Virus record (IMG/VR): IMGVR_UViG_3300045911_000771 | Coordinates: 1 to 20,187 of that record | DNA length: 20,187 nt | Direction: 5' to 3' (one strand) | DNA from: a virus | Part shown: positions 4,801-19,146 of the stretch, piece by piece | Layout of the letters: every line of letters starts with the position of its first letter | How positions within the stretch are numbered: position 1 is the first letter of the stretch | Translations under genes and position numbers: made by a program | Notes under the pieces: generated by a model | The model's database searches: none | What the model saw: the letters and a program-made list of their open reading frames with translations, nothing else | What the model was told of the DNA's origin: nothing

Positions 4801-5768
4801 ACATCCAGCCCCACATAGTCGCCCTCGCGAATCTCGCCCGATGACGCCACGCGTGCGGTATAGACGCCCGGCACGAAGCGTGTCAGCGTCGCCGGCGCCG
4901 ACCCGCTGTTCGACCAGACGACAATGGGGCCGTTCACGCCGGGCTTCAGCGTCACGGTGACGACGTTGCCCGAGGCCGAGCAGGTGACCAGGCTGTTGAC
5001 GTTCGGATCGTTGTTAAACCAGTTGGCGAAAAACTGGGCGATCTCCGCTGCGCCGGAGAATCCGCTCTGGGGACCGACCGCGACGGTCGTGTTGTTGATG
5101 AAGAAGTTGTGCCAGAACCACGGGTCGTCCTGCCACCAGACGACCTGGTCGGTGGAGTAAACATCGGGGCTGCCAACGTCCTGGGTGAGTTCTGTCTCGA
5201 GTTCGCAGAAGGCGATCGCCTCGGCCGAGGTGCAGGACCAGCGTGTACCCATGAAGTAGACGCAGGCCTTGTCGGTGAGCGCTGGCGTGGGCTTGCCGAC
5301 GAGCATCTCGTCAAGAGTATCGGCGTCGCGATCATGGAGCGAGAATCCGAAGCCGCCCGGAGCGTATTCCCCGGAGACGACTGCCGCCTGGTGCATCAGC
5401 GGGACTTCGTAGATGTCGCCGGCGCCGGTGGTGACCGTGAGCTTGTCCCACCCGACCGAGGCGTAGCGCACGCAGTCGGGCCGCACGTTGCCCTCCTCTC
5501 CGTTGACAGGCAATATCTCCATGTCGTACTGAAGCGCGAGCCTTGAGAGATCCGTCAACGGCAGCGGCTTCACGCGCAGGTGGTTGAAGTAGTCGTAGGC
5601 CGAAAAGAGCTGAATGTTGGCGAAGTCCTCGGCGGCCTGGAAGATGCCTGAGATCTGGAAACCGGTCTCGGTGGCGTCGTGGATTGTGGTGGTCGCCGCG
5701 CGGCCGGAGAAGCCCTGAAGTTGGATCGTGTGCCGAGGCTCGAATACTCGGAGTTCCTGGAGCGGCAT
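1866..5768 (-). CDS. Giant tail tip protein with C-terminal TIM-barrel glycosidase-like region
   Basis: 1300 residues from ATG 5768, which has GGAG 6 bases upstream; the longer reading from TTG 5795 has no such site. The N-terminal 290 residues are not recognised. Residues about 308-358 hold a beta-module ending HLAGAVCRVL, like parts of the hub and fibre. Residues about 610-765 resemble a carbohydrate-binding jelly roll (GRIEVTIDGG, HTVEIRALF, YFYFDYVWPLEP). From about residue 935 to 1250 the pattern is that of a (beta/alpha)8 glycoside hydrolase: VLQFGETQWW (candidate acid/base Glu1043), FECLWPLD (Glu1129), SECMYLAGIYG (Glu1203, candidate nucleophile) and a strand-8-like SFCFWAFDQF. RcGTA-type tails also carry a TIM-like domain in their last tail protein, but placed differently. 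Likely role: baseplate/tip protein that binds and perhaps cuts surface polysaccharide. The family and catalytic residues are inferred. Its C-terminus overlaps the fibre start. Confidence 0.7.
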   Translation of the reverse strand: MPLQELRVFEPRHTIQLQGFSGRAATTTIHDATETGFQISGIFQAAEDFANIQLFSAYDYFNHLRVKPLPLTDLSRLALQYDMEILPVNGEEGNVRPDCVRYASVGWDKLTVTTGAGDIYEVPLMHQAAVVSGEYAPGGFGFSLHDRDADTLDEMLVGKPTPALTDKACVYFMGTRWSCTSAEAIAFCELETELTQDVGSPDVYSTDQVVWWQDDPWFWHNFFINNTTVAVGPQSGFSGAAEIAQFFANWFNNDPNVNSLVTCSASGNVVTVTLKPGVNGPIVVWSNSGSAPATLTRFVPGVYTARVASSGEIREGDYVGLDVGGANDEVVKVLSVSGGSFTAHFGKRHLAGAVCRVLPRARHFGRLLRSRMVDAPQPDYGVQPSSLAVDQFTTTHTSAELKLKLAGQLGEYGRDANGMPVRVSVDGDNQIVGLKDGAAVFATTVQGAGNERLYRFTFPFASLTGYRNGDRSALVPVPAGDIVKVHLTFAPRFEDVEAGLREGGRLKEAVPAVPPGTEEEWRLTDADQMLAGRKYYVGTPEVEERIACLANFGLVKPDPDDPATWYYRVLVRRGEDSSTPLAWPPGTRVQRISTITGTRSDIEWQVRISNLIATGDRTLKVGGDAPRIEESDGRCRYEGFWEDYRYGAGWPTQWWSLGHAKRCAPNDAQDHRAVTIRYSYPREHDLYLGTWLGRDAGRIEVTIDGGVPVVHDLYLNDYNGLAAMKKLAAALPGGMHTVEIRALFSKHAASNGYYFYFDYVWPLEPQDPPDPPQVYPDVSAAIDFDTDHGYKKPPAWHVWHLKKLGFLGHADVYMGVFWNNKRRRVEAAYPNCTLALGSWEPDQPLWITLGDPLEQQPGTTLYFSPGAGLATEDITAHLRAMINVTFPGVWCTSDGNTIHLRSRAPSYAFSISTSAQFSVFHGVPPLGQPGAEGDWEMIDSISPVMTQGVRNWIRDLAREFEQAGIGASFAFSMECYRPPAEMRARYLHYENGVASPGQEVFLSVPSHQMHFGARVRNYLKQMYKECADELAAARLPIVLQFGETQWWYFDNIGPVEDGLDPNGGMPFYDVETIQAFQQRYGRQIWPFRRNTDSPDDDIEAADFLRDRIWEYCAEVISYVRRFHPTAVFECLWPLDANQGKPAPDPAFRALNFHVNLPNEWKTSAYGVKYFRAEGFDYDVWQKNARLMRQTLEFPLKLGRPASECMYLAGIYGPPDPPMREAYGMWRNRGLYSFCFWAFDQFCLNSRALPLEVPAQSSATLVTYRRPRAARSPEAPVAVAYAPEASSRLNTFRLNARRLNG
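1878..1883 (-). promoter_or_regulatory. Shine-Dalgarno site of the tail fibre gene
   Basis: On the minus strand AGGAGG lies 8 bases before the ATG at 1869. It sits inside the 3' end of the tip gene. It supports the chosen fibre start and independent ribosome loading in addition to coupling through the ATGA overlap. Confidence 0.8.
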
Positions 5769-5838
5769 TTGCTTCTCCCGAGCCAAGTATTCCAAAACGA
5801 TGGTGTTAGGCTCTTGCTAGGTGGGTCTGACGCGTTCG

Positions 5839-5873
5839 CGCAATGAAAGATTGCGGCACCGCCTGCCGGCGCC
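5839..5873. other. Two back-to-back hairpins between DUF262 gene and tip gene
   Basis: The first hairpin is a perfect 6-bp stem, CGCAAT/ATTGCG, with a 5-base loop (5839-5855). It is immediately followed by GGCACC/GGCGCC with a 7-base loop (5855-5873, one G-T wobble on the minus-strand RNA). Neither is followed by a T-run on either strand, so a standard intrinsic terminator is not supported. They lie in the 145-base gap downstream of the DUF262 gene. They could weaken read-through from it, protect an RNA 3' end, or be a remnant of insertion. Confidence 0.35.
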
Positions 5874-5913
5874 TTAGCCGACCAGAGAACTTGCGCCCAG
5901 ACTATGACGCGCC

Positions 5914-7611
5914 TTACACGCGCGACGGATTGTCGAAGTTCCAGATCTCTACAACCAAAGGTGCAAGTTTTGACGCGCGGTCACGAATAGCAACCTCGTC
6001 CCACTCTTGGTAATCGTGCGCGATTTGCCTTGCCATCTCGAGCTCAGAGTTTTTTGCATAGTGCGTGCGTTTGAACGCAAATCCACGATTGGCGGCGTCT
6101 TTGTTCAGACGCTCACCGAGCATCGTAAGATTCCCGATGTGCCACAGATACGGTTCAAGAACTTCCGGCTTCTCCCACTCGCCAGATGGGTTTCGCGGAA
6201 AGACATGCTCTAAATTGGCCTCGTCAATCGTGATCTCCTTAGTCTTGCTTTGCATATGGCGTGCCAGTCGGCTGACCATATAGCGTGCTTCATCCGCACT
6301 TAGGAGCAAGTCCGGAACAGCAGCCTTCACTTGATCGTCCGACGGTGCATTCTTGACGAGAGTGTCCTTTATATGGGACATGCAACCTCTAGCCTTATCT
6401 GGGTCGCTTGCCCGCTGCCTGATGTCTCGCGCCAGTTGGAAGAACACTGTCTCGAGGCCGGACGAGTCTAAATTGGCGACGAGTGAATAGCGAGTGGCGA
6501 ACACTAATAACCAGCGCGCTACTTTCTCAAAGTCCGCGCGACTAAGTGACAGATAGCTGGACAACAAGGGTGGCAAAGCAGGTTGGAAATCCAATTCTCG
6601 CAGCAGGCTCCGAACTACAGGCACCGCTTTGTCAAGATGTTCAGGGACCAAATCGAGCAACTGAACGTAGGTTTCGCACTCGTCAGAACATGCCTTTGTG
6701 AACTCGAGGCTGTCGATATTGTTCTGTTCAATGTGTTCTTTCAAGGCGGTAAACAGGTCTTGGCTTTTCAGGTCGCCGTACTTCGAAACCCACATGTGAC
6801 GCAGGAATCGATTGATATCACGTCGCCCCATTCGTTCAAGCATTTCGTTCCAGAAAGCCCGAATGCTCTTGCGTTGATCATCAGACTTCGCGACACGCAT
6901 CAAGTAGTTCAACAGCAAATCGGGCACGGAAAGGCGCAGGCCACGATCACTGAGCGTCTCAAAGATCTTGAAGGCATCTCGTTCGGAAGCCACAGGGATG
7001 CAGGCCAAGACAAGGTCACTGCGAACGGTCTGACGTAGTTCTTTCAGCACTGAAAGTGCACTTACGGGGTCCAACCCAGCCACCTTGCTTCGAAGAGCGT
7101 CGGACAGAAACTGTCGAGCCTTCTGGATGTTCCGATGCGATCTCAAAGTGGGTTTCTTGTTGGCCGGGGGATCGGCTTGAATGGTTTGGCTAAAGTAGAG
7201 CTTGTCCATATCGCCCATTTCCAGTGAATAGCCGAGCCCTTCCTTCTCTATCAATTCCCGCTGTACGTCTCTTGCGAAGTCAGCCGCGGCCTGAGTTCCA
7301 AGGCTCCGAGCAATGTCCCGCATGACGCTGAATAAGATTGTTGCCGTTGCAAGCCTTTGCTGACCATCGAGGAGCGCAATTGTGGTCTTGGATTCCGGAA
7401 GAATCACAATCGGCCCGAGGAAGTACTTGTCGGGCCCATCCTTTTGGTTCCGTTCGCGCTGAAACGCGACAATGTCGTTCCAGAAAGCCTCGACGTGTTT
7501 TCTCTCCCAGCTATAGCCCCGCTGAAATCGCGGAACCACTATCTGCGCCCGTTCGTTGGCGCTGAGCAACTCACCGATGTTCTTCGACTGAGCATTAAAG
7601 GTTTCGTACAT
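5914..7611 (-). CDS. DUF262/DUF1524 (GmrSD-type) nuclease-like protein, probable phage-defence cargo
   Basis: 565 residues, ATG at 7611, TAA at 5914. The N-terminal DUF262 (ParB/sulfiredoxin-like) domain is shown by FQRGYSW (29-35), FLGPIVI (64-70) and the signature DGQQRL (82-87). The C-terminal DUF1524 His-Me-finger nuclease region is shown by EHVFP (468-472), IGNLTML (492-498) and the N..F..K-type ending near 508-514. This pairing is that of GmrSD-like type IV restriction enzymes, in which the DUF262 part uses NTP and the HNH-like part cuts DNA, often modified DNA. Both halves are in one chain and their motifs look intact, so a working enzyme is plausible; the modified-base target is unknown. 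It is not a tail protein, yet it lies between hub and tip on the same strand. Its GC is lower than its neighbours (32 of 60 bases in 6241-6300 against 40 of 60 in 4261-4320). No strong ribosome site is seen. Best read as a defence gene carried as cargo. Confidence 0.88.
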   Translation of the reverse strand: MYETFNAQSKNIGELLSANERAQIVVPRFQRGYSWERKHVEAFWNDIVAFQRERNQKDGPDKYFLGPIVILPESKTTIALLDGQQRLATATILFSVMRDIARSLGTQAAADFARDVQRELIEKEGLGYSLEMGDMDKLYFSQTIQADPPANKKPTLRSHRNIQKARQFLSDALRSKVAGLDPVSALSVLKELRQTVRSDLVLACIPVASERDAFKIFETLSDRGLRLSVPDLLLNYLMRVAKSDDQRKSIRAFWNEMLERMGRRDINRFLRHMWVSKYGDLKSQDLFTALKEHIEQNNIDSLEFTKACSDECETYVQLLDLVPEHLDKAVPVVRSLLRELDFQPALPPLLSSYLSLSRADFEKVARWLLVFATRYSLVANLDSSGLETVFFQLARDIRQRASDPDKARGCMSHIKDTLVKNAPSDDQVKAAVPDLLLSADEARYMVSRLARHMQSKTKEITIDEANLEHVFPRNPSGEWEKPEVLEPYLWHIGNLTMLGERLNKDAANRGFAFKRTHYAKNSELEMARQIAHDYQEWDEVAIRDRASKLAPLVVEIWNFDNPSRV

Positions 7612-7631
7612 GCCGCGTACACCATTTCTGG

Positions 7632-7643
7632 AGGTCAGGACCT
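7632..7643. promoter_or_regulatory. Short inverted repeat upstream of DUF262 gene (possible operator)
   Basis: AGGTC-AG-GACCT, a perfect 5-2-5 inverted repeat, lies 21 bases before the DUF262 start in the 74-base gap after the hub stop. The minus strand here also has an A/T-rich stretch (AATAAAGG) that could serve as a -10. No convincing -35 was found. The position would suit autorepression, but this is a weak call. Confidence 0.2.
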
Positions 7644-7685
7644 TTATTCTCTCACTCTCCAGGGCTGATCTGTCGCGCCGTACAG

Positions 7686-10600
7686 CTATGTTTGGACGAC
7701 CACCGTCAGGTCCGACCCCGGATCCGGCGACGCGACGGCCAGGATATCGAAGGCCAGGTCGTCGCCCTCGTAAAGCACCGGCGTCGGCCAGATGGTTGGC
7801 CGGATGCGCTCACCGGCGGCGTGGTCCTTCGTCACGATTGCCTGGAACGATTGATTCTCAGCATCGACGCTGATCACGCGGACGTACTCCTCATTCGTGC
7901 CGCCGGGATCGAGGAAGACGAAGCCGCCGGCGACGAGGCCAAGTCGGTTCGCGCCATAGGAGGCCGTCTGCAAGGTCTGCGGATCGGGCCCGGCAGTCAC
8001 CGCCGAGATCAGCACTAGGCCGTAGTCGGCATATGGCAGGCGGCGGGTGGCGGGGAGCCCCAAGGCCTCGTTATTCACCAGAAAGTCGTAGGTGGTCTTG
8101 TAGGCGTCCGGCAAAGCCTGCGCGATGCCCATGTGCTCGATCGGTTCCCACGTCGCGCCTCCGTCCCGGCTGGTCTTCACCAGGAACGCTGACTGCCCGT
8201 CGGTCGTGCCCCGCTGAACGTAGGCGTAGACGCAACGGATCGAGGCGGCGTCCTGCACCTTGAGCGGGATGACGACGTTCTCCTGCACCGTCAGCGGGCC
8301 CGGCACCTGGAAGGTGTAGGCACCGCCGTTGCAGGTGCGGAGACCGGGCATGTGGGGCTCGTTGTGCCGTGAGAGCGGGAATACGGTGAAAGGCCCGTAG
8401 CCGAAGTGGTTGGCCACGCCGGCCAGCGCGGCCACGATGCAGGCGCTCGGCAAATTCGCCTCGATTCTGGCGGGCAGGTCCGGCGTGCGAAAGAAGCCCT
8501 TGCGCACGCTGAAGGTGAATGTCTTCTGGTCGAGCTTGTAGAAGCGGATGCCGGCAAGAGGCGCGCAGCGCAGAGTGCCGAAGGTCGCCTGGCCCTCGGG
8601 TACGCCCGGGTAGGCGCGTTGTAGGTGAAACTCGCCGCTCGGCACGACGTCGCCCGGTGCGCCAGGACCGATGATCTGAACGCACTCATACGACCGCCGG
8701 CCTGGGTTCGCAGGGTCGGCCGACTCATCGTTGAAGACGACGAAGTCGCCTACCCGGAAGACCCGTTGTGTATCGGGATTGACTGTGCAGACCACGGTGA
8801 CGGGGTCGGTCGCAGCATCGATTGCGGTGTCGATAGCCGCCCAGAGATCGGTCGTCAACTCGTCCACGTAGTAGAGCGCCAGGGTGATCTCGTGCGCGCC
8901 AACGATGTTCGAGTTGCCGGAGGCGTCGGGCGCAACCGTCATGTCGTCGATGGCGAACGTGCCGTAGTCGCCCAGGCGAGGAACGCCGTTCAGCACGCCG
9001 GGGACGCCCGTGTCGATGAGCACTTCTTCTGTGGGCGGCTCCGGCACAACGTCGGCGGGCTTTGGGCCAGCGACCAGGTCGTACATCGAGTCCGTGGTCG
9101 TGCGGCCCTGGATGTCGATCGAGTAGTCCCGGTTCAACCGCCAGCCGGTCACGCGAAACTCGCCCTGCCCGCCAGGCATGTCAGGATGGGTCATCGAGCA
9201 GACCATGCCGGGTTCGGTGTTGAGGGCAAGCACGGTTGTGCGGAAGCCGATCTGGCGCGCCTTCTTCCACTCCTCCGAGGTGATGCCGCCCAGTTCCTCG
9301 CGCAGCCGCACGGTGATGATGCGCGCCGCTTGCGACTTCGACGCCGTGCCGGAGAGATTCACCGTTGACTTCAGGAACAGCGGACCCGCGCCGCCGCTGA
9401 TGAGTGTGGCGTGGTCGATGTCGTAGAGCGAGATCGAGTTCGCAACGAACTCGAAGTCCTCGTCGGCGAAGTTGGCGGTCAGATGGTTGAACGAAGGTCT
9501 CAACGGCGCGAGTTGCAGGCTCCGGAACAGGATGTTGCCTTCGGTGAAGGCCTCGACCGCTGACGAGTTCATACGGACGCCGAGCTTCAGCTTGCCATTG
9601 GCGAACGTGTAGTAGCCCAGGCAGTTCATCAAGACTTCCTGGAGCCAGTCGCGCAGCGGCTTCTCCTCCTGGAGCACGCCGCGGAACTTGAACTGCGTTT
9701 CCGTGCCCGTACCCACCAGCCTCGAAACCTGCTCGTCACAGATCGCCGCCGCCGCGATGGCCGCATCGACATCGAACAGGGTCTCGGCGAAATCGAGTTG
9801 CTCCGTGGCGGCGCCCGCGCCCAGACGCAGCCCTCGGGCACGGAGGAGCATGTTGACTGCGATCCAGATCGGATTGGTCAGGGGCGGCCCGAAGACGCGC
9901 ACGCCGGGCGAAGTCCAAACCCAGCCGCTCAGTCCCTGGGCGACGACCGCCTCCATGGCGTGCTCGCTCAGCCGCGAGAGTTGCAGCCCTTTGGCGTCCG
10001 AACGGCGGATCATGAGGAACGCCGTTCCGGCCGCGCGCTCCGGGCCAGCGTCGGTATCCATGCCGAAGGTGGTTGGGTTCGGGTCGGCCCCCAGACTGGT
10101 CATCAGTCCGAGCGAACCCGGGTAGCCGTGGTGGAACTGCCCGTCCAGTTTGTGGCCCGTGCCATAAGCGCCCAGCGGGCCTTCGCCCACGATGCCCACC
10201 GCTGCATAGAAGTCGCTCTCGTCGCGGCCCATGGCGATCTTGGCGTTCACGGGCATGGGCGAGTCGGTGTAGATCTCTGGCAGAACCTGATCGTAGATCG
10301 AGTCGGCGACCAACGAGACGGAGGTGAGCGTCGAGCGGCCGAAGCCCCAGACGCCGGTCGAGTTGTCCTTGATGCGCACGCCCTGCGGCTTGGCCATGAT
10401 GCCGCCGTAGTAGTCGTTCATGCCGTGGGCGCGGCAGCCGTTGGGCGTGTCGAATCCTTTGTCGCAGCGAGTGGGATCGGCATTAAGGAAATGCACCAGA
10501 TCGAGCGCGCCTTGTGAGGCGAACGGACAGGCCCTGGAGTTGAAGGGCTTCCAGCAGGTGCGGGAGATTTTGCGCGTCGGGTATGGCAGATTGAGCTCGT

Positions 10601-11438
10601 AGAGCCCATCGGCGGCGGTGACGCGGAACTCCGGACCCGCATCGCAGGTCCAGTTCACGATGTTTCCCTTCCAGAGATCGAGCTTAATGCCGGTGCCAAC
10701 GTGGTACAGGCTGAAGGCGATCTGGGCGCGGAAGAGGTCGACGTCGTTGGCAAGATCCCGCATCACGCGGTCGGCGTTGCCGAAGGTGAACTGAGCCTCG
10801 TCGGACTCGTTTCCGATGGATTGCGAGATGCCGTCGAATTCGACCACGCGGGCCTGGTAAAGCTGGCCGCCGATGGTGCATCGCCGGTCGGAGACATGGA
10901 TGGCAGGGTAGCCAGGTTCGAGCGGCTGGATGCGAACGAGCGGGATGATCTCCTGGACCTGCGAGAGCAGCGCGGTTTGGAGCGCGGCGGGTGGGAAGCG
11001 GTGGACCGTCTGGTTCAGCGGATAAGACGGGCCGGTCTGGGGGATCTCAATAAGAGTTACGCCAAGCGAGCAGGCCCAGTCCGCGACCATCTCCCAGGAG
11101 AGCGGTTCGTTGGCGAAGCGGCAAATGACGGGCGTGGTCCCGGTGCCGCTGTCGTTGGGGGCGTTGTAGGTGAAAGCCCCGTATGGGCCGTACTTCGTCT
11201 CCCAGAAGTTGCGCAGGGCGATGCGCTCGGCGTCGCGGAGCCATTGCTTGCGAATCGTGAATCTCCGCGCGCCGGTGCCGAGGAGGATGCGCTGCTCCAC
11301 TTTCCCATTGCCACTGCCGAACTGATGCACGGCGACGTCATGTTCGCGGCGGACCTCGATCGGGTAATCGGGCGTGAGCGGAAACACTCCCGACGCTGCG
11401 ATCTCTGGGACCGGGACGTTGCCGATGGAGTCGGGCAT
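7686..11438 (-). CDS. Fused tail hub protein (gpM-like + gpL-like Fe-S + gpJ-like)
   Basis: 1250 residues from ATG 11438; a TTG at 11453 would add 5 residues, and neither start has a clear ribosome site. Residues about 15-135 resemble the gpM/DUF2460 distal tail fold (FTIRKQW, FWETKYGPYGAFTYNAP, ending GVTLIEIP). Residues about 155-350 resemble gpL/DUF2163/BR0599: DRRCTIGGQLYQARVVEFDG, then four cysteines at 295, 304, 325 and 335 (CWKPFNSRACPF and CDKGFDTPNGC), followed by YYGGI. In lambda gpL the equivalent cysteines hold a [4Fe-4S] cluster. Residues about 510-795 look like the gpJ/phage-tail-3 hub (NPIWIAVNMLL, LQEEKPLRDWLQEVL, GYYTFANGKLKLGV). After the linker KPADVVPEPP come about 450 residues of beta-rich additions; the last, near 1166-1215, ends DHAAGERIRP, like modules in the tip and fibre. 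Role: central hub joining the tube to the tip. Lambda uses three separate genes for this. Confidence 0.8.
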   Translation of the reverse strand: MPDSIGNVPVPEIAASGVFPLTPDYPIEVRREHDVAVHQFGSGNGKVEQRILLGTGARRFTIRKQWLRDAERIALRNFWETKYGPYGAFTYNAPNDSGTGTTPVICRFANEPLSWEMVADWACSLGVTLIEIPQTGPSYPLNQTVHRFPPAALQTALLSQVQEIIPLVRIQPLEPGYPAIHVSDRRCTIGGQLYQARVVEFDGISQSIGNESDEAQFTFGNADRVMRDLANDVDLFRAQIAFSLYHVGTGIKLDLWKGNIVNWTCDAGPEFRVTAADGLYELNLPYPTRKISRTCWKPFNSRACPFASQGALDLVHFLNADPTRCDKGFDTPNGCRAHGMNDYYGGIMAKPQGVRIKDNSTGVWGFGRSTLTSVSLVADSIYDQVLPEIYTDSPMPVNAKIAMGRDESDFYAAVGIVGEGPLGAYGTGHKLDGQFHHGYPGSLGLMTSLGADPNPTTFGMDTDAGPERAAGTAFLMIRRSDAKGLQLSRLSEHAMEAVVAQGLSGWVWTSPGVRVFGPPLTNPIWIAVNMLLRARGLRLGAGAATEQLDFAETLFDVDAAIAAAAICDEQVSRLVGTGTETQFKFRGVLQEEKPLRDWLQEVLMNCLGYYTFANGKLKLGVRMNSSAVEAFTEGNILFRSLQLAPLRPSFNHLTANFADEDFEFVANSISLYDIDHATLISGGAGPLFLKSTVNLSGTASKSQAARIITVRLREELGGITSEEWKKARQIGFRTTVLALNTEPGMVCSMTHPDMPGGQGEFRVTGWRLNRDYSIDIQGRTTTDSMYDLVAGPKPADVVPEPPTEEVLIDTGVPGVLNGVPRLGDYGTFAIDDMTVAPDASGNSNIVGAHEITLALYYVDELTTDLWAAIDTAIDAATDPVTVVCTVNPDTQRVFRVGDFVVFNDESADPANPGRRSYECVQIIGPGAPGDVVPSGEFHLQRAYPGVPEGQATFGTLRCAPLAGIRFYKLDQKTFTFSVRKGFFRTPDLPARIEANLPSACIVAALAGVANHFGYGPFTVFPLSRHNEPHMPGLRTCNGGAYTFQVPGPLTVQENVVIPLKVQDAASIRCVYAYVQRGTTDGQSAFLVKTSRDGGATWEPIEHMGIAQALPDAYKTTYDFLVNNEALGLPATRRLPYADYGLVLISAVTAGPDPQTLQTASYGANRLGLVAGGFVFLDPGGTNEEYVRVISVDAENQSFQAIVTKDHAAGERIRPTIWPTPVLYEGDDLAFDILAVASPDPGSDLTVVVQT

Positions 11439-11452
11439 TATGCTAAGAGGCA

Positions 11453-12328
11453 ATGGACTGCCAGCAAGGCGCTTCTTGCCAAAGGCCGGAGGCCGATGAA
11501 GTCCGAGAACTGTTCGCTCGTTTCGGCCGAGCTTATTACTACGCTGAGGTTCTAAGCCGAGGATTGCTCAACTTGTGCGCCCTCTCCAAGCTTCCGAAAG
11601 AGGGGCCAATTACGAGACCTCGCGCCGAAGAGCACCTTCGTGAAGCATTCAGGCTGACTCTGGGGCAGGCCGTGACTTCAGTTAGTTCCTACTTCACGCC
11701 TGAGAATCTGGAGCAACTCAAGACGGCCGTGCAGCAAAGGAATTTCCTTGCCCATCACTTCTGGTTCGAATGCGCTCACCTGTTGACAAGTAAAGAGGGT
11801 GTTAAGGAGATGATATTTCAGCTCGATTTGCTTGCCGACCTATTTCAACGTCTTGACAAGGAGGTTGAGTGCGTGTCCAGGCGGGTATTGGCGCGCATCG
11901 GTATCACCGAAACAATGCTGGTTCAGTGCTTCGATGAAGTCTTGCGCGGCGAGCCGATGGAACCGCTTCCCAAAACTCGTATGCCAAAGAAAGAGGAGGT
12001 CATCATTGGTGTCTTCCGCGCTGTCAGTCCGACAACTCCTGGCAAGTCTGTCCTTCTCTTTCAAACCGATGACGGACTCATCTGGCAATTGTGCGATGCA
12101 GGTCTTGGCTGGTCGCCGTATGAAACCGTGGACGCGAATTGGGAGAAAGTCGATAAGTTCGTCGACCTTTTGCCAGCGCGAGTGAATCCCCGCCCCCCGC
12201 TCAGAGGGCCCTGGAATTTCGACATCGTCTTTGGAAAGCAGGCAAGGCTCGAAGTCAGACCGGGAGTTCGACCCGGTGAGGTTATCTTCAAGCTGAATCG
12301 AACGTCCAGCGAGCGACGCTCACGGTAA
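11453..12328 (+). CDS. HEPN-like protein, only plus-strand gene, cargo inserted against the tail operon
   Basis: 291 residues, ATG at 11453, TAA at 12326-12328; an in-frame TAA at 11444 excludes an earlier start. The N-terminal 145 residues are predicted helical (FARFGRAYYYAEVLSRGLL; EHLREAFRLTLGQAV) and contain QQRNFLAHHFW with Arg96-X4-His101, the R-X4-6-H signature of HEPN RNase and nucleotidyl-transfer-associated domains. The C-terminal half (175-291) is beta-rich and unassigned, with WQLCDAGLGWSPYETVDANW. No antitoxin-like partner lies beside it. It runs opposite to the tail genes, converges with the gpM-like gene 21 bases away, and diverges from the hub gene with 14 bases between the two ATGs. 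GC is low (26 of 60 bases in 11761-11820), a sign of recent arrival. The ribosome site is poor (AGAGG only 2 bases from ATG). The gene call is firm; the HEPN assignment is moderate and any toxin or defence role is inferred. Confidence 0.8.
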   Translation: MDCQQGASCQRPEADEVRELFARFGRAYYYAEVLSRGLLNLCALSKLPKEGPITRPRAEEHLREAFRLTLGQAVTSVSSYFTPENLEQLKTAVQQRNFLAHHFWFECAHLLTSKEGVKEMIFQLDLLADLFQRLDKEVECVSRRVLARIGITETMLVQCFDEVLRGEPMEPLPKTRMPKKEEVIIGVFRAVSPTTPGKSVLLFQTDDGLIWQLCDAGLGWSPYETVDANWEKVDKFVDLLPARVNPRPPLRGPWNFDIVFGKQARLEVRPGVRPGEVIFKLNRTSSERRSR

Positions 12329-12349
12329 GCTGGTCGGATTTAGGCGGAT

Positions 12350-12751
12350 TCAGGCCAACTCGATCAATTCGACATTCACCCCCGCGCGCCCGAGCAGCAT
12401 GGACTGATTCCAGCCGCCGGCGAAGCGCACGGTGTACCGGCCTGCAACGGCCTGTCCCGTCGGATCGTGAGAGAACTTCGGGCTGGTCTCATACGGGTCG
12501 TAGAAGTAAAACGGCTCGGCCGGGCCCTTGCGGGCGTCGAAGAAATCGCGGAGAGCCGAAAGCTGCACAGGGGTAAGCCGCTTGGCCAGCCGCCAGCGTT
12601 TGCGGCTGTTGGTCGCCTGAACGGACCGCTGCGATTCGCCGTTGCGGTACTCGTTGTCGAGCGCCGGATACTCGCGCTCATGGACGAAGGCGCGCGAGAG
12701 GCTCGCTGGCAGCACCGTCAGCGGCACTGCGTTCTGAACTGAGCCGGGCAT
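12350..12751 (-). CDS. Distal/minor tail protein, lambda gpM / DUF2460-like
   Basis: 133 residues, ATG at 12751, TGA at 12350. The pattern NSRKRWRLAKRLT, ALRDFFDARKGP, PFYFYDPYE, RYTVRFAGGW and ending GVNVELIELA fits small distal tail proteins that form the ring between tube and hub (lambda gpM, DUF2460 of gene-transfer-agent tails). The same scheme recurs in the N-terminus of the hub gene (FWETKYGPYGAFTYNAP, then GVTLIEIP), so the two are probably paralogues. The start overlaps the muramidase stop by one base (TGATG), with GGTGA 7 bases upstream as a likely ribosome site. An in-frame extension to 13075 is Arg-rich shadow sequence lying inside the muramidase gene and was rejected. In the ancestral order it would have been followed directly by the hub, but the HEPN-like gene now separates them. 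Confidence 0.72.
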   Translation of the reverse strand: MPGSVQNAVPLTVLPASLSRAFVHEREYPALDNEYRNGESQRSVQATNSRKRWRLAKRLTPVQLSALRDFFDARKGPAEPFYFYDPYETSPKFSHDPTGQAVAGRYTVRFAGGWNQSMLLGRAGVNVELIELA

Positions 12752-13197
12752 CAGACGGTCACCAGATCGATCAGTCTCTTGTCCGGGCGCGCGCCGATCC
12801 GGCTCGCCACGAAACGCGCATAGTTGGCCGGATGGTTGCCATCTGCCGAGGGCGCGTACACGCGAAACATCTCCTCCGCGGTCGGCGGCTTGCCCTGCGT
12901 GTAGCGCCCGGCGAGATACTGCCCGACCAGCACGCGCAGGATGCGCCAGCCTTCCTCGATTGCTCGCCGGCTCATCTCCTCGCGCGAGGCGCCGGGAAAT
13001 CGCTCGGACGCCCACGCGACGAAGTCCACGTAGCCGCGATAGGTCGGATAAGGCCGGCCTCGCGCGTCGCGCCACTGCCGGATGTTGCCTGGGTTAGCGT
13101 TTCGCTGAGCAAGCGTTGGCTTCGCGGCGGTGACGTAAAAGCCCTCCATCTCCGCGATGGCCCGCGCGATCTTCTCGATGAGTTCTGCTCGCGTCAC
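12751..13197 (-). CDS. Lysozyme/transglycosylase-like tail muramidase
   Basis: 148 residues, GTG start at 13197, overlapping the tape-measure stop as GTGA. The layout is that of small phage lysozyme-fold proteins: IAEMEGFYV with the probable catalytic Glu18, then QRNANPGNIRQW (the NPGN-I/L motif), YVDFVAW, and the C-terminal RVYAPSADGNHPANYARFV signature. No signal peptide or membrane segment is present, so it is not built as a free exported endolysin. Its place between tape measure and distal tail protein suggests a virion part that opens peptidoglycan during entry, a role that in other phages may be a tape-measure domain or an NlpC/P60 gene. The GTG start and the overlap suggest lower, coupled translation. 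The family is assigned by motif; the glycosidic versus transglycosylase mechanism is not decided. Confidence 0.78.
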   Translation of the reverse strand: MTRAELIEKIARAIAEMEGFYVTAAKPTLAQRNANPGNIRQWRDARGRPYPTYRGYVDFVAWASERFPGASREEMSRRAIEEGWRILRVLVGQYLAGRYTQGKPPTAEEMFRVYAPSADGNHPANYARFVASRIGARPDKRLIDLVTV

Positions 13198-16100
13198 GAC
13201 AGGATCAACCCTGGACTCAATTGCAGCCCGGTCATCTCACGGCGGCCGGCGCTGGCCTTGGTCGCGGTCATCGCCGCCGATTGCACGGCGCGCGGATTCT
13301 CCACCACCATGCGCACCGTCTCCTTCTCGAAGAACTCTTTCGCTCCTGGCACGGTGATGTTGATCACCGTGGGCCCGGCCGCGGACGACGGCGCGCCGCT
13401 GCCGATACGGTCCAGCGTCAGACCACCGGAACTCGAATGGAAGAGGCTCCCGCCTTGCTGGAGGAGTGACACTGGGCGCACAGTGGCCGGTAGCCCCGAA
13501 GTACTCTGGCCAGTCGACAGCGCGTACAACTCGACCAGGTCGCGGATCTGTTGACTCCTAATGGCCATGTCGAGATTGCCGCCAAAGGCTTGCTTGGCGA
13601 TGTCGACGATCTGCCTCAGCACGCCTTTGTCGCGGATGTCGACCCCGTAGGTGGCCTTGATCCTCTCGCGGGCCTTCTCTTGCGCGCCTTTGACGAACAG
13701 CCGCACCAGGCCGGCGACGGCGCCGATGCCTGCGCCGATCGCCGCGCCCAGAGGACCGCCATACTTGAAGCCGATCATCGCGCCGCCGGCGGTGGTCATG
13801 GCAAGACCGGAAACGCCGCCGCGCTGGAGGCCCATCAGCGCAAGCGTCGCGCCACCGAGCAGCGCGGCATTGGAGCGGCCAAGAGCCGAAAGCTTCTGAC
13901 CCATCGTAGCGGCTTCCCAGGTCACGGCCTTACCGGGTGCGTACTGGACGCCGCCGCCGAATCCGAGGAAGTCCTTCCATCCGCCGAGCAGTCCACTCAA
14001 GCCACCGCCGCCACTCGAAGGGATGAAGGGAGGCGTGCCCCAACCGCCGGCCGCGTCGCCGGGAATGGGACCACCCCCACTGCCTCCTCCGAAGACCGGC
14101 GCCGCGCCGATACCGAGCAGTCCGCCGAGTCTGCCAAGAGTACCGCCGCCGGAGGCGCCTCCACCAGCCAGTGAGACTCGCTGTCCAGTAAAGAGCTGCA
14201 TCAGCATCGCGGCAACGCGCGAGCTGACCACGTCCTTGATGGCGGTCAAGAGAGCGGTCTTGAGCGAATTGCCGATGGCAGACCAGATGGACTGCGACTT
14301 GGTCAGCAGCGCGTCGAAGACGCCTTCAGCTTGGCGCTTAAAGGAATCGAAGATCCGTTGGTTGTGATCGCGCACCAACTGCGCCTGGCGGACTGCCGCC
14401 GTCTCGCGTGCGCCCTGCATCGCGGCATCCGTGGCTTCCTGCTGGAACCGCCGGATCTCATCCCGTTGAGCGGTGAGTTCGGCGATCCTCGCCTGGATCT
14501 CGTCGGCCCGGTAGCCGAGCCGCTTGAGTTGCGCCTCTTCCTCGATCATCATCCGTGAGGTTTCCAGATCAAACAGCCGCATGCGGATCTCATGGACCCG
14601 CGTGAGGTACTCGATCTCGATCGCAGCCTTGCGCTGCTCGACGGCGACCTTCTGCTCCAGAGTCAGCGCGTTCGTGGCATCGAGCGCCCGCAACTGCGCT
14701 TCGCGCGCGATCCCGGCCCGCTGCTCTTCAATCCCGAGCATCTGCTCCAGGTGATCGAGGTTCCGCTTCGCAATCTCCTCGTTGTAGGCCAGCCGCTGTG
14801 CGAAGAGATGCGACTCGATCTCCAGCCGCCGGCGTGCGGCTTCTTCCTCCGCGGCCAGGTACTCGGCGAGGTTCTTGCGATTGGTCTCCTGGACTTCCTT
14901 TTGCCAGTTCGCAAGCCGCTCACGAAGCTCGCCGATGAAATTCTCCCACGCCGCGCGGGTCAGCGCGATCCGCTGCTCGTTGCCGCGCTCGTCGGCAAAC
15001 GTAGTCCACTTGCGGACCTGCTCCTGGACCTCGGCCATGTCCCGCGCGAAACCCGTCAGTCCGCGCCGGCGCGCTTCTTCGAGCGCCCGCGCGCTCTCGC
15101 GCTCCACCTCCAACTGGCGCTTGCGGATCTCGGCCGCTCGTTTTAGCGCTTCGAGGTCCGGCTCCGATGACGTCTTGATGGTCAGCTTGGGCCCTTCATA
15201 GTCGAACGGCTGCTCGCCAGACAGCCACCTTTTGCCGCTGATGAGTTCGCGGATCTGGTCATCGGTCATCCCCTGCTTGCGCAACGCATCGACGCTCGTC
15301 CGCCCGCTGAAGAGATCCTCGCGCAGCGCCTTGCGCTGCATCTCGTCGAAGCGGGCCTGAAGCTGATCCTGGGTGTCCTTCCACTGCGAGTAGATGGCGA
15401 AGCCCGCGCCCACCACGCCCACCGCGAGCAGGGCGTAGGGGTTGATGCTCGCGAGCTGGAGCGCGGCGATCGACTTTGCGAGCGCCATGATCTTGTCGGC
15501 GAGGGCGTAGGTGGCTAGAACCCCAGATACCCAGAGCGCCACCTCGCCGAACTTCTTGAGCAGATCGGTGTTCTCGCGGAGCCAGCCGACCAGGCCGCGC
15601 AAGTTGCCAATCAGCGCCTTGAAGTCATCCTGGAACTTGGCTCCGATGTCTTCGCGCAGGTTGTTGAACTCGCGGCGCAGCGCGCCCAGTTGTCCCTCGA
15701 CCGTCTGGGAGGCCGCCGCGTGGGCACCCTGGATCTTCGCGCCTTCGCGGATGACCGCGTTATAGCGGAACTGCTTCTCCTCGGTTTCGGTCAGGGCGCG
15801 TCCGAGCTGAAGCTGGGCGATCTGCGCTTCCTTCTGGAAGTCGACGAACAGCCCCAGGGTCCGTAGCCCGCGCGAGGCGCCCGACTCGATGGCCATCACG
15901 ATGGATTCGAGGGCTTCGCCCGCCGCGATGTTCTGGACCGCTGCCGCGTCCTTGGCCAGTTTCGCCAAACCTTGCGCCTTCGATAATTCGAGATCGGCCA
16001 CGATCAGCCGCTGCACGGCGTGCGCGGCTTCGGTGTACTCGAAGCCGATCTCCTCGATCGCGGCAACCTGCCTGGCTGCTGCCGCCGCTCCCACGCCGTG

Positions 16101-16403
16101 GGCGTTGGCCAGCGCCTTGAGCGAGGCCTCGGCCTTGGCATTCTCGGCAGCCATCATGACGGAGCCGACGGTGAACTCCTTGGCCCAGGCGAGCGCGCTC
16201 TTGATGGCGTCGGCCAGTAGGTTCCCGGCTGTGGCGCCCTTCACCATCGCGGCGGTCATGCCATCGATGCCCTGCGCCGCACCCCGGGCAGTCTTCACCG
16301 CCGACGCTTCCATGCTGGAAAGGCTCGCGTTGACGCTCTTGATGGACGCATTGGCCCTGTTGGTGTCGACTTCAACGACGAGTTCGAGCCTGTTATCGGC
16401 CAT
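13194..16403 (-). CDS. Tail tape measure protein
   Basis: 1069 residues from ATG 16403 (MADNRLELVVEVDTNRANAS, a usual tape-measure opening). The frame is open to 16541, but the extra 46 residues do not look like protein. Residues 1-280 are Ala-rich helix. Residues 285-340 hold two hydrophobic segments (ALWVSGVLATYALA and YALLAVGVVGAGFAIY). Residues 415-690 are long charged coiled coil. Residues 746-820 are Gly-rich linkers (GGGASGGGT, SSGGGG). Another hydrophobic Gly/Ala segment follows at about 845-905. The C-terminus has TVINITVPGAKEFFEKETV and AVQSAAMTATKA, typical of tape-measure ends that bind the tail initiator. At the known ratio of about 0.15 nm per residue it would set a tail of about 160 nm. 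The stop overlaps the muramidase start. The usual upstream neighbour, the G/T chaperone, is now separated from it by the outer-membrane barrel gene. Confidence 0.93.
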   Translation of the reverse strand: MADNRLELVVEVDTNRANASIKSVNASLSSMEASAVKTARGAAQGIDGMTAAMVKGATAGNLLADAIKSALAWAKEFTVGSVMMAAENAKAEASLKALANAHGVGAAAAARQVAAIEEIGFEYTEAAHAVQRLIVADLELSKAQGLAKLAKDAAAVQNIAAGEALESIVMAIESGASRGLRTLGLFVDFQKEAQIAQLQLGRALTETEEKQFRYNAVIREGAKIQGAHAAASQTVEGQLGALRREFNNLREDIGAKFQDDFKALIGNLRGLVGWLRENTDLLKKFGEVALWVSGVLATYALADKIMALAKSIAALQLASINPYALLAVGVVGAGFAIYSQWKDTQDQLQARFDEMQRKALREDLFSGRTSVDALRKQGMTDDQIRELISGKRWLSGEQPFDYEGPKLTIKTSSEPDLEALKRAAEIRKRQLEVERESARALEEARRRGLTGFARDMAEVQEQVRKWTTFADERGNEQRIALTRAAWENFIGELRERLANWQKEVQETNRKNLAEYLAAEEEAARRRLEIESHLFAQRLAYNEEIAKRNLDHLEQMLGIEEQRAGIAREAQLRALDATNALTLEQKVAVEQRKAAIEIEYLTRVHEIRMRLFDLETSRMMIEEEAQLKRLGYRADEIQARIAELTAQRDEIRRFQQEATDAAMQGARETAAVRQAQLVRDHNQRIFDSFKRQAEGVFDALLTKSQSIWSAIGNSLKTALLTAIKDVVSSRVAAMLMQLFTGQRVSLAGGGASGGGTLGRLGGLLGIGAAPVFGGGSGGGPIPGDAAGGWGTPPFIPSSGGGGLSGLLGGWKDFLGFGGGVQYAPGKAVTWEAATMGQKLSALGRSNAALLGGATLALMGLQRGGVSGLAMTTAGGAMIGFKYGGPLGAAIGAGIGAVAGLVRLFVKGAQEKARERIKATYGVDIRDKGVLRQIVDIAKQAFGGNLDMAIRSQQIRDLVELYALSTGQSTSGLPATVRPVSLLQQGGSLFHSSSGGLTLDRIGSGAPSSAAGPTVINITVPGAKEFFEKETVRMVVENPRAVQSAAMTATKASAGRREMTGLQLSPGLILS

Positions 16404-16626
16404 GAGAATTCGCCGGAGCAGTCCGTGGTTGAGATCCGGGTCAGATGGCGGTAACGCTGCGTCCGTGCACGATCGGTCTACAGTTCGTGACCAATGGCAC
16501 CACGATGTGCGCGTGCGCGGGGTTCTTGGCTTACTTCCCAAGAAGAAGGGAACAGGCGTGCTGCCGGAGTACTTCGAGTCGCGAACTCATACACCACTCC
16601 CGCTAGGCGATAGCCTGTCCGTGTCA

Positions 16627-17835
16627 TCAGAACGTCAAGGACACTAGAAGCTCTAACTGGTTTCGCGCCGTACCTGCGTTCATGAACCACGCTCGCGAGT
16701 CCGCCGCCCATCGTGTATACCGGAGCATGGGACCGAACCTAAGCGCCTTGTAGTCCGTTTCAACGCCGCCGCCGACCGTAAACCCGTAGCGCGACGGGTT
16801 GTAGCCATTGAGGTTACCGGAAAGTCGGAATGATGGACCAGCCTCCACAACCGGTCGAATCGTCGCCTCAGGACGAAACCGGTACTTTCCAAGCAATGGA
16901 AACTGCCACGTCAAAACAGTGAATTCGAACCGCGATTCCCCGAACCGTGGGTCGAAGTTGATCCAGTTGGCGCGAAACGGACGATACAGTCCATTTGCCT
17001 CGACCGACCAGTGCCGGTTCATCTCCACTTCCACCGCCAACCCGCCAATGTAGCCCTGCGACTCGTCTATCCGTTCTGGTGCAGCCAATTGCTCGAGTCC
17101 GGATGTGAACGGCGCTCCTCCCACTATCCCCAATCGCAATTTTCTGCCGCCAACCCTCCAAGACGGCAACGAGGTCGCATAGCTGATCCCAGTGACGAAC
17201 TCGATCTGATCGCGCTTGGTCGCGATTCGAGGATAATCGCCATCATACTGCCACCGCGTGTAGCGGATCGCCGGCGACACACGAAACCTGCCGGCGCGAA
17301 TCTCCGCGCCCGCGCCTACCGTACCGCCAACCTGCGATGGCTCGGAGGGAGCTGGGTTATGACGGGTGCGAAATGACGGCCCAGCCTCTACAAACGGACG
17401 TACTGCCCCGTACCCCGTCGTTCGATACTTCAGCAGAATCGGCCACTCCCACGTGCTCACTGACAACTGGCCGTCGTGCTGCGTAACGCCGTCAGGCAAA
17501 ATGAACCTACGCTTCAACTCAAGCGCCCGATGTAGCGCATTTCCTTCGAGCGACAGGCCTTTCCCGAAGTAAATCTCTACGGACAGTCCAGCTAAAAAGC
17601 TGTGAGTGTCTGAGAACAGGTCGAATGTTGTCAGACCTTGCGGGTGGCTTGGGTCCAGGAAAATCGACCTGGAGATCGGGAAATCGCGCGTGAGATTGGT
17701 TCCGCCGATGAAGCCGAATGAGGTGCGTTGCCCGAAGGCAACGTGCACGTTCGCGACCAGTGCAAGCACGAGGCACGCCCATCTAATCTGCAATGATCGA
17801 GGCCCGTGGCGAACGCCATCATCTCGTATTAACAA
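16627..17835 (-). CDS. Tandem double outer-membrane beta-barrel protein, accessory cargo
   Basis: 402 residues from TTG 17835, chosen because AGGAGG ends 5 bases upstream; the longer ATG reading from 17940 puts 35 extra residues before the signal peptide. A hydrophobic signal core (ACLVLALVANVHVAFG, residues 19-35) ends with probable cleavage before Gln36. Two homologous barrels follow, about 38-218 and 233-402. Each has GG-rich first strands, a W-(E/Q)-(W/F)-P strand, VEAGPSFR (148-156 and 329-337), a GxGxE strand and RYTRW (190-195 and 371-376). The protein ends LELLVSLTF with a terminal Phe, the signal for BAM-mediated insertion. Single copies of this family are common in Acidobacteriota to my knowledge; a tandem fusion is less usual. 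Function is unknown (surface protein, porin, or receptor-masking factor). It sits between the chaperone and tape-measure genes and has GC of 34/60 in 17161-17220. Gaps of 374 and 223 bases flank it. Confidence 0.85.
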   Translation of the reverse strand: MLIRDDGVRHGPRSLQIRWACLVLALVANVHVAFGQRTSFGFIGGTNLTRDFPISRSIFLDPSHPQGLTTFDLFSDTHSFLAGLSVEIYFGKGLSLEGNALHRALELKRRFILPDGVTQHDGQLSVSTWEWPILLKYRTTGYGAVRPFVEAGPSFRTRHNPAPSEPSQVGGTVGAGAEIRAGRFRVSPAIRYTRWQYDGDYPRIATKRDQIEFVTGISYATSLPSWRVGGRKLRLGIVGGAPFTSGLEQLAAPERIDESQGYIGGLAVEVEMNRHWSVEANGLYRPFRANWINFDPRFGESRFEFTVLTWQFPLLGKYRFRPEATIRPVVEAGPSFRLSGNLNGYNPSRYGFTVGGGVETDYKALRFGPMLRYTRWAADSRAWFMNAGTARNQLELLVSLTF

Positions 17836-17840
17836 AACGT

Positions 17841-17846
17841 CCTCCT
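17841..17846 (-). promoter_or_regulatory. Shine-Dalgarno site deciding a TTG start for the barrel protein
   Basis: A perfect AGGAGG on the minus strand is followed after 5 bases by TTG (17835-17833), in frame with the signal peptide. The nearest ATGATG lies 18 bases from the site and opens a different, non-protein-like frame. This fixes the start of the outer-membrane protein. Confidence 0.75.
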
Positions 17847-18209
17847 GTGTTGTTTCGACGCTGAACGGGGTTATCCACTGCAGCCTCTTGATCACGGACA
17901 AAGGAGATTCGCCTGTGGTGGGAGGCAATTCACTCTCCACTCCTGAGGCGTCCGTAGAATCAATGACGTGGCGCAGTCCGCCATTCTCGTTGGCTCACAC
18001 GTGTGCGGCCTTTGTCACAGGGTATCTGAACCTTGGGTTTTGTCGCTACGCCAGGGTGTCTGACGGCACCTGATGGTCCCACAAGCCTTATTGCCCTCGA
18101 TCAACGGCGTAGCGTTAGCCGATCCGCATTGGCAAATCGGGTTATCGGAACGTGATGCTGGCTCGGTCGTGGCCTTGGCGGTACTGGGCGCTCCGGGGCG
18201 GCGCGCCGT
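17847..18209. other. Gene-free gap upstream of barrel gene
   Basis: About 360 bases between the chaperone T stop and the barrel gene's ribosome site. I see no protein-like reading frame and no RNA gene. It must hold the barrel gene's promoter if that gene is transcribed separately, but no -35/-10 pair stood out. The one notable site is a perfect 10-bp palindrome, CACACGTGTG, at 17996-18005, a possible protein-binding site. Confidence 0.4.
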
Positions 18210-19135
18210 CTATCGATCTGCCCGCCTAAGTTGGTCCACCCTTTCTCTCTCCTCCTCCAGCACAACCAGCGCCCGGAACTCCTCCGCGCGGATCTCGTCG
18301 AGGCCAATTCGTACGCCGAGCTTTAGCGCCGCGCGGAGATCGAGCGCGCGCCGCAGCAACAGGCCCGCCTCGGAGGATTGCGCGGCATCCAGTCTGTCCA
18401 GAGGGCAGTGGCCGCAGCGGGCGCCATCGTCGGGGGCGTCCGGGCAAAGGCCGGGGTCGCAGAGTTCATGTCGCCGGAATGCCCAGTGAATCAAGAACCG
18501 CAGGGAGGGTCGCTCGGGCCACTCCCCATTGGTCAGTTTGGGTCGCCGGACTCCTGGAACATGCCGTCGAGAGCGTCGATCGCGGCTTTGACGGCCACGG
18601 CCTGGTGGATTATCGGCACATCGCCCGTGTACCCTTCAGAGGATTCGAGCAGCTTCTTGAAGAGCGCGGCGGCCGGAGCCAGGTTGATGGTCAACTCCTG
18701 GCGGTTGTAAGGCAGGTCGAGCACCCGCGCGAAGCCGCGCCGGTATTCGAAGACATCCCTGGCCGAGGGCATCTTCAGGATATGCGCCACCGAGCCGCCA
18801 GGGACGCGCAGCATCACTCGGAAGGCGTCCCCCTCCTGGACGACGTCATCGACGTCCGACTGGCTCAACTGCTCGATGATGCGACTGGCTTCGAAGGCAT
18901 CGACCTCAGGCGCACTCTCCTCCGGCAGGCGGATCTTTGCGAGCAGCGCGGCATCGGCTTCTGCCGAGTCGGGAATCGTCGTTTCGGACACCCCGCGCCC
19001 CAGTTGCTTCACGATGACCTTACGCTTCTTCTGGCGGTCGATCCACTCCTCGTCGGTCGGGAAGCGCACGCAGATTGACTTCACGCCATCGGGCGTGCGC
19101 AGGTGAATGGTGATGGGTTGCTTTGCGTCAAACAT
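18210..19135 (-). CDS. Tail assembly chaperone G-T fusion made by predicted -1 frameshift
   Basis: Translation starts at ATG 19135. At CCCAAAC (18542-18536) a -1 slip would bypass the TGA at 18535-18533 and add 108 residues, giving about 308 residues. The T extension begins LTNGEWPERPSLRF and continues LIHWAFRRHELC to ALVVLEEERERVDQLRR, ending at 18210. Within T, four cysteines are spaced C-X4-C-X9-C-X2-C (ELCDPGLCPDAPDDGARCGHC), a possible zinc site. The T frame has no ATG or GTG with a ribosome site; its first candidate, TTG 18494, has none. This favours frameshift expression, as in lambda G/GT. In that system G coats the tape measure and the T part recruits tube protein. Both products are consumed in assembly and are absent from the particle. 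The frameshift is predicted, not shown. Confidence 0.72.
18502..18542 (-). promoter_or_regulatory. Predicted -1 programmed ribosomal frameshift signal
   Basis: On the minus strand the slippery heptamer C CCA AAC (18542-18536) fits X XXY YYZ in the chaperone frame and is followed at once by TGA. Eight to nine bases later GGGAG (18526-18522) can pair with CTCCC (18507-18503), with one further G-U pair outside, giving a stem at the usual distance from a slippery site. After the slip the frame stays open for 108 codons. The stem is short; a longer pseudoknot was not sought. Confidence 0.75.
18533..19135 (-). CDS. Tail assembly chaperone G (unshifted product)
   Basis: 200 residues, ATG 19135, ending MFQESGDPN at TGA 18533. 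Position directly after the tube protein (11 bases between stop and start) and before the tape measure is the standard place for the G chaperone. The sequence has FPTDEEWIDRQKKRKVIVKQ near the N-terminus, an acidic middle (EASRIIEQLSQSDVDDVVQE) and a hydrophobic C-terminal helix region (VPIIHQAVAVKAAIDALDGM). No catalytic motif is expected. The 90-base upstream extension to 19225 overlaps the tube gene and lacks protein character. The ribosome site is weak (AGTGGA). The call rests mainly on synteny plus the frameshift signal at its stop codon. Confidence 0.8.
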   Translation of the reverse strand: MFDAKQPITIHLRTPDGVKSICVRFPTDEEWIDRQKKRKVIVKQLGRGVSETTIPDSAEADAALLAKIRLPEESAPEVDAFEASRIIEQLSQSDVDDVVQEGDAFRVMLRVPGGSVAHILKMPSARDVFEYRRGFARVLDLPYNRQELTINLAPAAALFKKLLESSEGYTGDVPIIHQAVAVKAAIDALDGMFQESGDPN

Positions 19136-19146
19136 GAGAGTCCACT

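Follow-up and report, generated by a model that had tools for sequence, protein, structure and literature searches.

We analysed the complete virus record IMGVR_UViG_3300045911_000771 (20187 bases, in the following "the window"), which covers part of the late operon of a phage, namely a siphophage tail operon read on the minus strand. Three of its genes, coding for an outer-membrane beta-barrel protein, a HEPN-like protein and a GmrSD-type protein, are foreign to this operon. Very probably they are morons seated at fixed junctions, permissive to inserts, in the conserved tail operon of a family of temperate siphophages of Acidobacteriota, with Bryobacterales/Solibacteraceae and relatives, i.e. 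soil Acidobacteria, as hosts. As expected of morons, all three lie between genes that abut in relatives, and their GC content, GC content at third codon positions (GC3) and codon use are unlike those of their neighbours.

Foreign genes in the tail operon

The barrel, HEPN-like and GmrSD genes have GC contents of 0.576, 0.545 and 0.524, respectively, as compared to 0.63-0.67 for the tail genes, and GC3 values of 0.655, 0.603 and 0.604 as compared to 0.75-0.89. When codon use was scored against the tail genes in a leave-one-out manner the three genes gave z values of -13.8, -12.8 and -17.8, whereas the tail genes themselves range from -3.3 to +2.4. Each of the three is the single gene in one of the only three true breaks of the operon, at 16404-18209 (1806 bp), 11439-12349 (911 bp) and 5796-7685 (1890 bp). 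A first-pass annotation of this DNA had claimed that the tight packing of the tail genes is broken only at three points, each holding one gene of lower GC content, and had proposed a codon-use profile as a check. Direct reading of the junctions and the values given above bear this out, and the three genes are neither conserved in place nor matched in codon use to the tail genes, as normal parts of the module would be. The features are listed below, with sense and antisense referring to the direction of the operon.

16627-17940, minus strand (sense): outer-membrane beta-barrel protein, cargo of site A; Pfam OMP_b-brl_2, E = 6.7e-12, and OMP_b-brl, E = 3.5e-09
11453-12328, plus strand (antisense): HEPN-like protein, cargo of site B; Rx4H motif RNFLAH
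5914-7611, minus strand (sense): GmrSD-type protein (DUF262 + DUF1524), cargo of site C; Pfam GmrSD_N, E = 1.8e-30, and GmrSD_C, E = 4e-20
16404-18209: junction site A, GT-like chaperone X18210/tape measure protein, loaded in the window
11439-12349: junction site B, DUF2460-like/J-like, loaded in the window
5796-7685: junction site C, J-like/sheath-like, loaded in the window
13194-13197: junction site D, tape measure protein/LYS, empty in the window
18210-19138, minus strand: X18533 and X18210, lambda G/GT-like tail chaperone pair with the frameshift at 18490-18550; control junction, loaded in 0 of 66 loci
13194-16403, minus strand: tape measure protein (TMP), named from its size and from lying after the chaperone pair and before the distal tail genes
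12751-13197, minus strand: LYS, virion-associated lysis-like/tail protein; PHROG tape measure, E = 6e-08, and endolysin, E = 3e-06
12350-12751, minus strand: DUF2460-like minor tail protein; Pfam DUF2460, E = 5e-07, just below the cut-off
7686-11438, minus strand: J-like tail hub/host-specificity protein; PHROG central tail fiber J, E = 5e-10
1866-5768, minus strand: sheath-like/TIM-barrel tail protein; Pfam TIM-barrel_NCTSP, E = 6e-05, below the cut-off

In reading direction the operon encodes the major tail protein (MTP), the chaperone pair, TMP, whose frame is conserved at the same position across relatives, LYS, the DUF2460-like protein, the J-like hub, the sheath-like TIM-barrel protein and a fibre protein. 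Neighbouring genes overlap by 4 nt at TMP/LYS (GTGA, 13194-13197), by 1 nt at LYS/DUF2460 (TGATG, around 12751) and by 4 nt at sheath-like/fibre (1866-1869), and the sheath-like gene probably starts around 5768 instead of 5795. MTP and X18533 are spaced by 11 nt. The 38 nt between X18533 and X18210 are no true break since the two genes form a lambda G/GT-like -1 frameshift pair: the slippery sequence C CCA AAC directly precedes the X18533 stop codon in 50 of 66 loci, and the X18210 frame is open through this stop codon in all 66.

The barrel gene contains two OMP_b-brl stretches, and its true start is probably an internal GTG ahead of a signal-peptide-like stretch. An identical copy was found only in one other record, L061. 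The GmrSD-type protein, in which both DUF262 and DUF1524 are present and the motif DGQQR can be read, matches the PADLOC model HEC-06 over its full length (E = 7.7e-103).

The antisense protein gave no Pfam match and no significant hit among the sequences of the PDB, and a structure model computed from the single sequence was too poor for use (predicted local distance difference test score of 35). Among viral contigs relatives were found only in L061 and L002, both of which were already in our set. A search of 399 Acidobacteriota genomes yielded matches in 12, five of them clear, and the motif RNxLAH is invariant in the six diverged sequences formed by the window protein and these five chromosomal relatives (28-60% identity). 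Moreover, a relative of its N-terminal half is encoded on the Vibrio alginolyticus plasmid NZ_CP054704.1 in an integron-like cassette array together with DUF3265, abortive infection, HIT, RelBE, PIN and restriction genes. Judged by its sequence the protein is thus likely, but not proven, to be a HEPN protein, as the motif is kept in the chromosomal relatives and the plasmid relative lies in the array just described.

Occupancy of the junctions in relatives

Using the J-like protein we collected 125 relatives, 80 loci from viral contigs and 45 from metagenome-assembled genomes (MAGs), nearly all from Acidobacteriota; the INPHARED phage collection contained no close relative of the J-like protein. 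The tail genes occur in the window's order across the relatives. For a census of the resulting 126 loci a junction was counted as loaded if the gap exceeded 250 bp, the denominators differing from junction to junction.

Site A (GT/TMP) is loaded in 24 of 68 loci with 13 cargo types and not loaded in the other 44. At site C (J/sheath-like) 48 of 78 loci are loaded, comprising 33 cargo types, and the non-loaded loci of the viral set are either empty (-8 to +17 nt) or have a gap of 177-181 bp. Site B (DUF2460/J) is loaded in 93 of 118 loci and empty in 25. The first-pass annotation had taken this site as an entry point for defence genes, which holds for part of the loads only: 19 are other cargo, but 74 are virion-gene cassettes of two kinds, both GC-rich and in sense orientation. 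Site D (TMP/LYS) carries a HigBA toxin-antitoxin (TA) pair or holin-like genes in 10 of 64 loci, and the corresponding TMP/DUF2460 junction of phages without recognisable LYS is loaded in 12 of 39, so that with both arrangements pooled the junction between TMP and the next gene is loaded in 22 of 103. The control junctions behave differently, with loads in 2 of 61 (MTP/G), 0 of 66 (G/GT), 5 of 71 (LYS/DUF2460) and 0 of 55 loci (sheath-like/fibre). Altogether, the hot junctions are loaded in 187 of 367 cases and the four controls in 7 of 253 (Fisher p ~2e-44, relatedness being ignored).

The same pattern is seen among close relatives, whose J proteins are ~86-100% identical. In these, empty junctions are simple gene overlaps, 11 nt at GT/TMP (ATGGCCGATAA), 8 nt at DUF2460/J (TTGCCTGA) and ATGA at TMP/LYS. 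Site C holds 14 cargo types among 27 loci, site A six cargo types and 14 empties among 25, and site B seven cargo types and 20 empties among 42, while at the four control junctions all 106 cases are empty. The sites gain and lose cargo independently, as L002 contains the HEPN gene of the window but has an empty GT/TMP junction. These results show that, in relatives with the same order of tail genes, the junctions GT/TMP, DUF2460/J and J/sheath-like, and less often TMP/next gene, alternate between an empty state and one loaded with unrelated cargo of lower GC content, the other junctions of the operon remaining closed. The comparison suggested in the first-pass annotation, i.e. a search for the same tail genes with empty junctions or other cargo, thus gave a strongly positive result at all three sites.

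Repertoire, orientation and origin of the cargo

Clustering of all loaded gaps gave 72 cargo types, of which five were met at two or more sites; one of these five, HigBA, occupies the corresponding junction in a phage without LYS. The mean GC content of the non-virion cargo types is 0.57, compared with 0.625-0.66 for the tail genes. A sample of the cargo, partly chosen for looking interesting, was annotated with Pfam and PADLOC. L027 carries, adjacent and co-directional, a cyclase (E = 2e-123) of the cyclic oligonucleotide-based antiphage signalling system (CBASS) and a two-transmembrane Cap15-type effector (E = 6e-70), which make up a CBASS with a cGAS/DncV-like nucleotidyltransferase and its cognate effector in one operon. 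TIR proteins are found in L077 (CAP12-type, sense) and L093 (TIR_2/ThsB-like), and L064 contains an AIPR/AbiU protein on the sense strand. Further matches comprise NYN, HNH_5, PLDc, a ParA-type ATPase, radical SAM, nSTAND, SLFN_AlbA_2 and Mrr as well as HigBA, BrnTA, PIN toxins and MerR/thioredoxin cassettes, and several scanned types, e.g. in L026, L045 and L056, gave no family match. Most cargo is compact, consisting of one gene or one TA or CBASS pair.

A MerR and thioredoxin-like cassette type was observed at two junctions, J/sheath-like in L005 and L065 and DUF2460/J in L066. The J/sheath-like junction of one MAG prophage (L099:3663-9258, ~5.6 kb) holds a PIN toxin, a large open reading frame (ORF) of no named family and IS3-like transposase ORFs. 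The region past the fibre gene is variable as well and often antisense (L008, L019, L060, L082, L124 and others), with a 727-residue ORF common to L008 and L019, a 790-residue ORF in L060 and a relative of the barrel protein in L124; the end of the operon is possibly a further cargo site.

When each cargo type was assigned a strand by its longest ORF, 40 came out as antisense, 18 as sense and 14 as ambiguous. Leaving out five virion/lysis-type sense cassettes gives 40 antisense versus 13 sense types (binomial p 3e-4), and homology-verified cargo is antisense in 17 cases and sense in five (p 0.017). The longest-ORF rule can err against the antisense bias, as the BrnTA type was scored as sense by ORF length while its Pfam-matched BrnT toxin is antisense. 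In the window one cargo gene is antisense (HEPN-like) and two are sense (GmrSD and barrel).

The family is temperate, judging from its integrases and chromosomal copies in relatives, the window itself being a fragment. Integrases are encoded by seven of 16 longer records (four tyrosine, three serine), a 54-kb relative has a serine integrase, a VapE-type primase, a GpA terminase and further ORFs of head-module size, and MAG host contigs of up to 562 kb carry family loci. Given the integrase, primase, terminase and head-module-sized ORFs of this long relative, tailocins and gene transfer agents were dropped as candidates. The large subunit of its GpA-type terminase (L130:15908-18898) is interrupted around residues 303-359 by a LAGLIDADG-type insertion, which is probably an intein. 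Two MAGs contain separate J-like contigs, one with L084, L089, L094, L101 and L111 and the other with L083, L085, L090 and L092; in both the J-like genes are full-length or nearly so on at least four separate contigs, which suggests either heavy poly-lysogeny or mixing of strains in the MAG.

We propose that cargo enters through rare events of illegitimate insertion into the stop/start overlap, which would duplicate the first ~40 bp of the downstream gene and thereby allow both tail genes to survive. In two loci, L018 and L066, duplicates of the downstream gene start (37 and 41 bp) lie beyond the cargo and are the trace expected from an insertion that spares both overlapping genes. Prophages might then swap cargo by homologous recombination between the tail genes on either side, an exchange that has its opportunity in the MAGs that hold many copies of the family. 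In a comparison of flank identities few pairs passed the similarity filter, and the result added little to the census. In a lysogen the cargo would be transcribed from its own signals and shield the host from other phages; upon induction the strong late tail transcript would oppose antisense cargo, mute it and so limit self-targeting. Expression in the lysogen and muting are suggested by the orientation of the cargo and the precedent of Staphylococcus aureus Tha. Sense cargo such as GmrSD and the barrel may be read with the late operon or independently of it.

Several observations weigh against this reading. A scan of the window with a promoter consensus not specific to Acidobacteriota gave two promoter-like sites where 2.6 were expected, a terminator scan gave 15 terminator-like sites where 14.0 were expected, and in just four of 42 antisense cargos does a terminator-like hairpin lie no more than 200 nt from the 3' end; as these scans are at chance we can only infer independent expression of the cargo. 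Orientation was derived in part from longest ORFs, with 14 types being ambiguous. Direct repeats or target duplications, looked for across all loaded sites, gave a footprint in L018 and L066 only, and a dedicated transposition mechanism was dropped on these grounds. The loaded state with GmrSD rests on one contig since GmrSD is absent from every other viral contig searched. Finally, the richness of the scanned sample in defence and toxin genes is an impression rather than a measurement, as there is no host background rate and the proteins were partly picked as interesting.

Neutral tolerance, according to which inserts at these junctions simply leave translational coupling and frameshifting intact and the cargo consists of random pieces of host DNA without a selected role, is unlikely. 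One control junction is indeed the frameshift pair, which is intolerant of inserts, and some cargo seems unrelated to defence (an esterase, radical SAM, MerR/thioredoxin, unmatched proteins). Coupling, however, fails to predict openness, as the hot junctions overlap by 4-11 nt while MTP/X18533, spaced by 2-33 nt, is nearly closed, and the cargo is compact and, within the scanned sample, seemingly rich in defence genes and toxins. That the cargo provides late-stage phage functions, i.e. exclusion or inhibition of host systems co-expressed with the tail, agrees with the sense orientation of two of the three cargos of the window and of AIPR and CAP12-TIR elsewhere, and with lambda lom and HK97 gp15, which are sense-strand genes at such junctions; we regard it as distinctly unlikely because most types of cargo face against the late operon.

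Homing endonucleases or other self-mobile elements might drive the insertions, with defence genes being passengers or misread homing enzymes. HNH domains occur in several cargos (HNH_5 in L018, HNH in L040), GmrSD_C is HNH-like, and the transposase ORFs of L099 were recognised by eye, but most scanned cargos lack a homing-type nuclease and conserved end sequences are missing except for the two ~40-bp copies of the downstream start, making this explanation very improbable. It is scarcely credible that unrelated contigs were joined at the junctions during assembly: GmrSD is confined to one contig, but an independent record, L061, matches the window exactly over the barrel and HEPN regions, L002 also has the HEPN gene, and loads at these junctions turn up in numerous records and MAG contigs of many different samples.

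Comparison with known systems

Morons at fixed junctions, as favoured here, would mean that the structural operon serves as a series of fixed cargo bays that can be used repeatedly, in place of one terminal hotspot, in a lineage infecting poorly studied soil bacteria. Such bays are a compact hunting ground for new defence genes, several scanned types having no family match. In the literature searched, which was mostly open-access, we found no description of the acidobacterial family or of defence cargo at multiple junctions of a tail operon.

The hotspots of P2 and P4 are likewise high-turnover loci of 1-5 kb between two conserved phage genes and filled with defence systems (Rousset 2022, PMC9122126). 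The P2 hotspot, however, is located by cos between gpA and gpQ, whereas the acidobacterial family uses several junctions inside the late structural operon. Mu-like phages of Pseudomonas have accessory genes at several fixed loci, which have been likened to morons, and one of these plasticity regions coincides with low GC content; in the part of that report available to us the regions mostly hold one short ORF, including anti-CRISPRs, and comparable defence-system cargo does not appear (Cazares 2014, PMC4378225). In the "noncontiguous operon" of S. aureus Tha/ith a HEPN defence gene lies antisense to a phage transcript, being on in the lysogen and off upon induction (PMC11087260). By contrast, the acidobacterial cargo lies among the late tail genes, and no inhibitor was found.

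The closest parallel is provided by HK97, HK022, lambda and N15, whose records have accessory genes at the same three tail positions. HK97 carries gp15 at GT/H as well as gp22 and the reverse moron gp23 at I/J; HK022 has gp20, gp22, srb and Cor in the tail region and a reverse moron before J; lambda has lom at J/orf-401 and N15 the genes 22-24. Behind J, lambda, HK022 and N15 encode outer-membrane or exclusion proteins such as lom and Cor, and HK97 gp15 confers superinfection resistance, as cited in PMC6379469 (Cumby 2012). The several entry points inside a tail module, which the first-pass annotation had considered unusual, are therefore real but less unprecedented than assumed. This match in position suggests a general rule on where tail operons tolerate or select foreign genes. 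We tentatively extend it to a rule common to unrelated temperate siphophages, which may or may not hold and which we consider rather doubtful: three cargo bays would be reserved, between chaperone and tape measure, before J and after J, and antisense orientation would be preferred so that upon induction late transcription automatically stops defence. If true, the structural operon itself would regulate prophage-borne immunity. The antisense bias leads to a concrete, testable proposal on how prophages escape their own defences.

Like the acidobacterial cargo, lambdoid morons are single genes, some of them reversed. The acidobacterial phages differ in their Acidobacteriota hosts and only distantly related tail genes, and their cargo, which is mostly antisense, is larger (up to ~4 kb) and much more varied, with multi-gene defence systems and TA pairs among it. 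Putative terminators are annotated in HK97, whereas most acidobacterial cargo has no terminator-like hairpin nearby. Docking sites at the same places are thus known from Escherichia coli phages, but not with such a variety of defence cargo.

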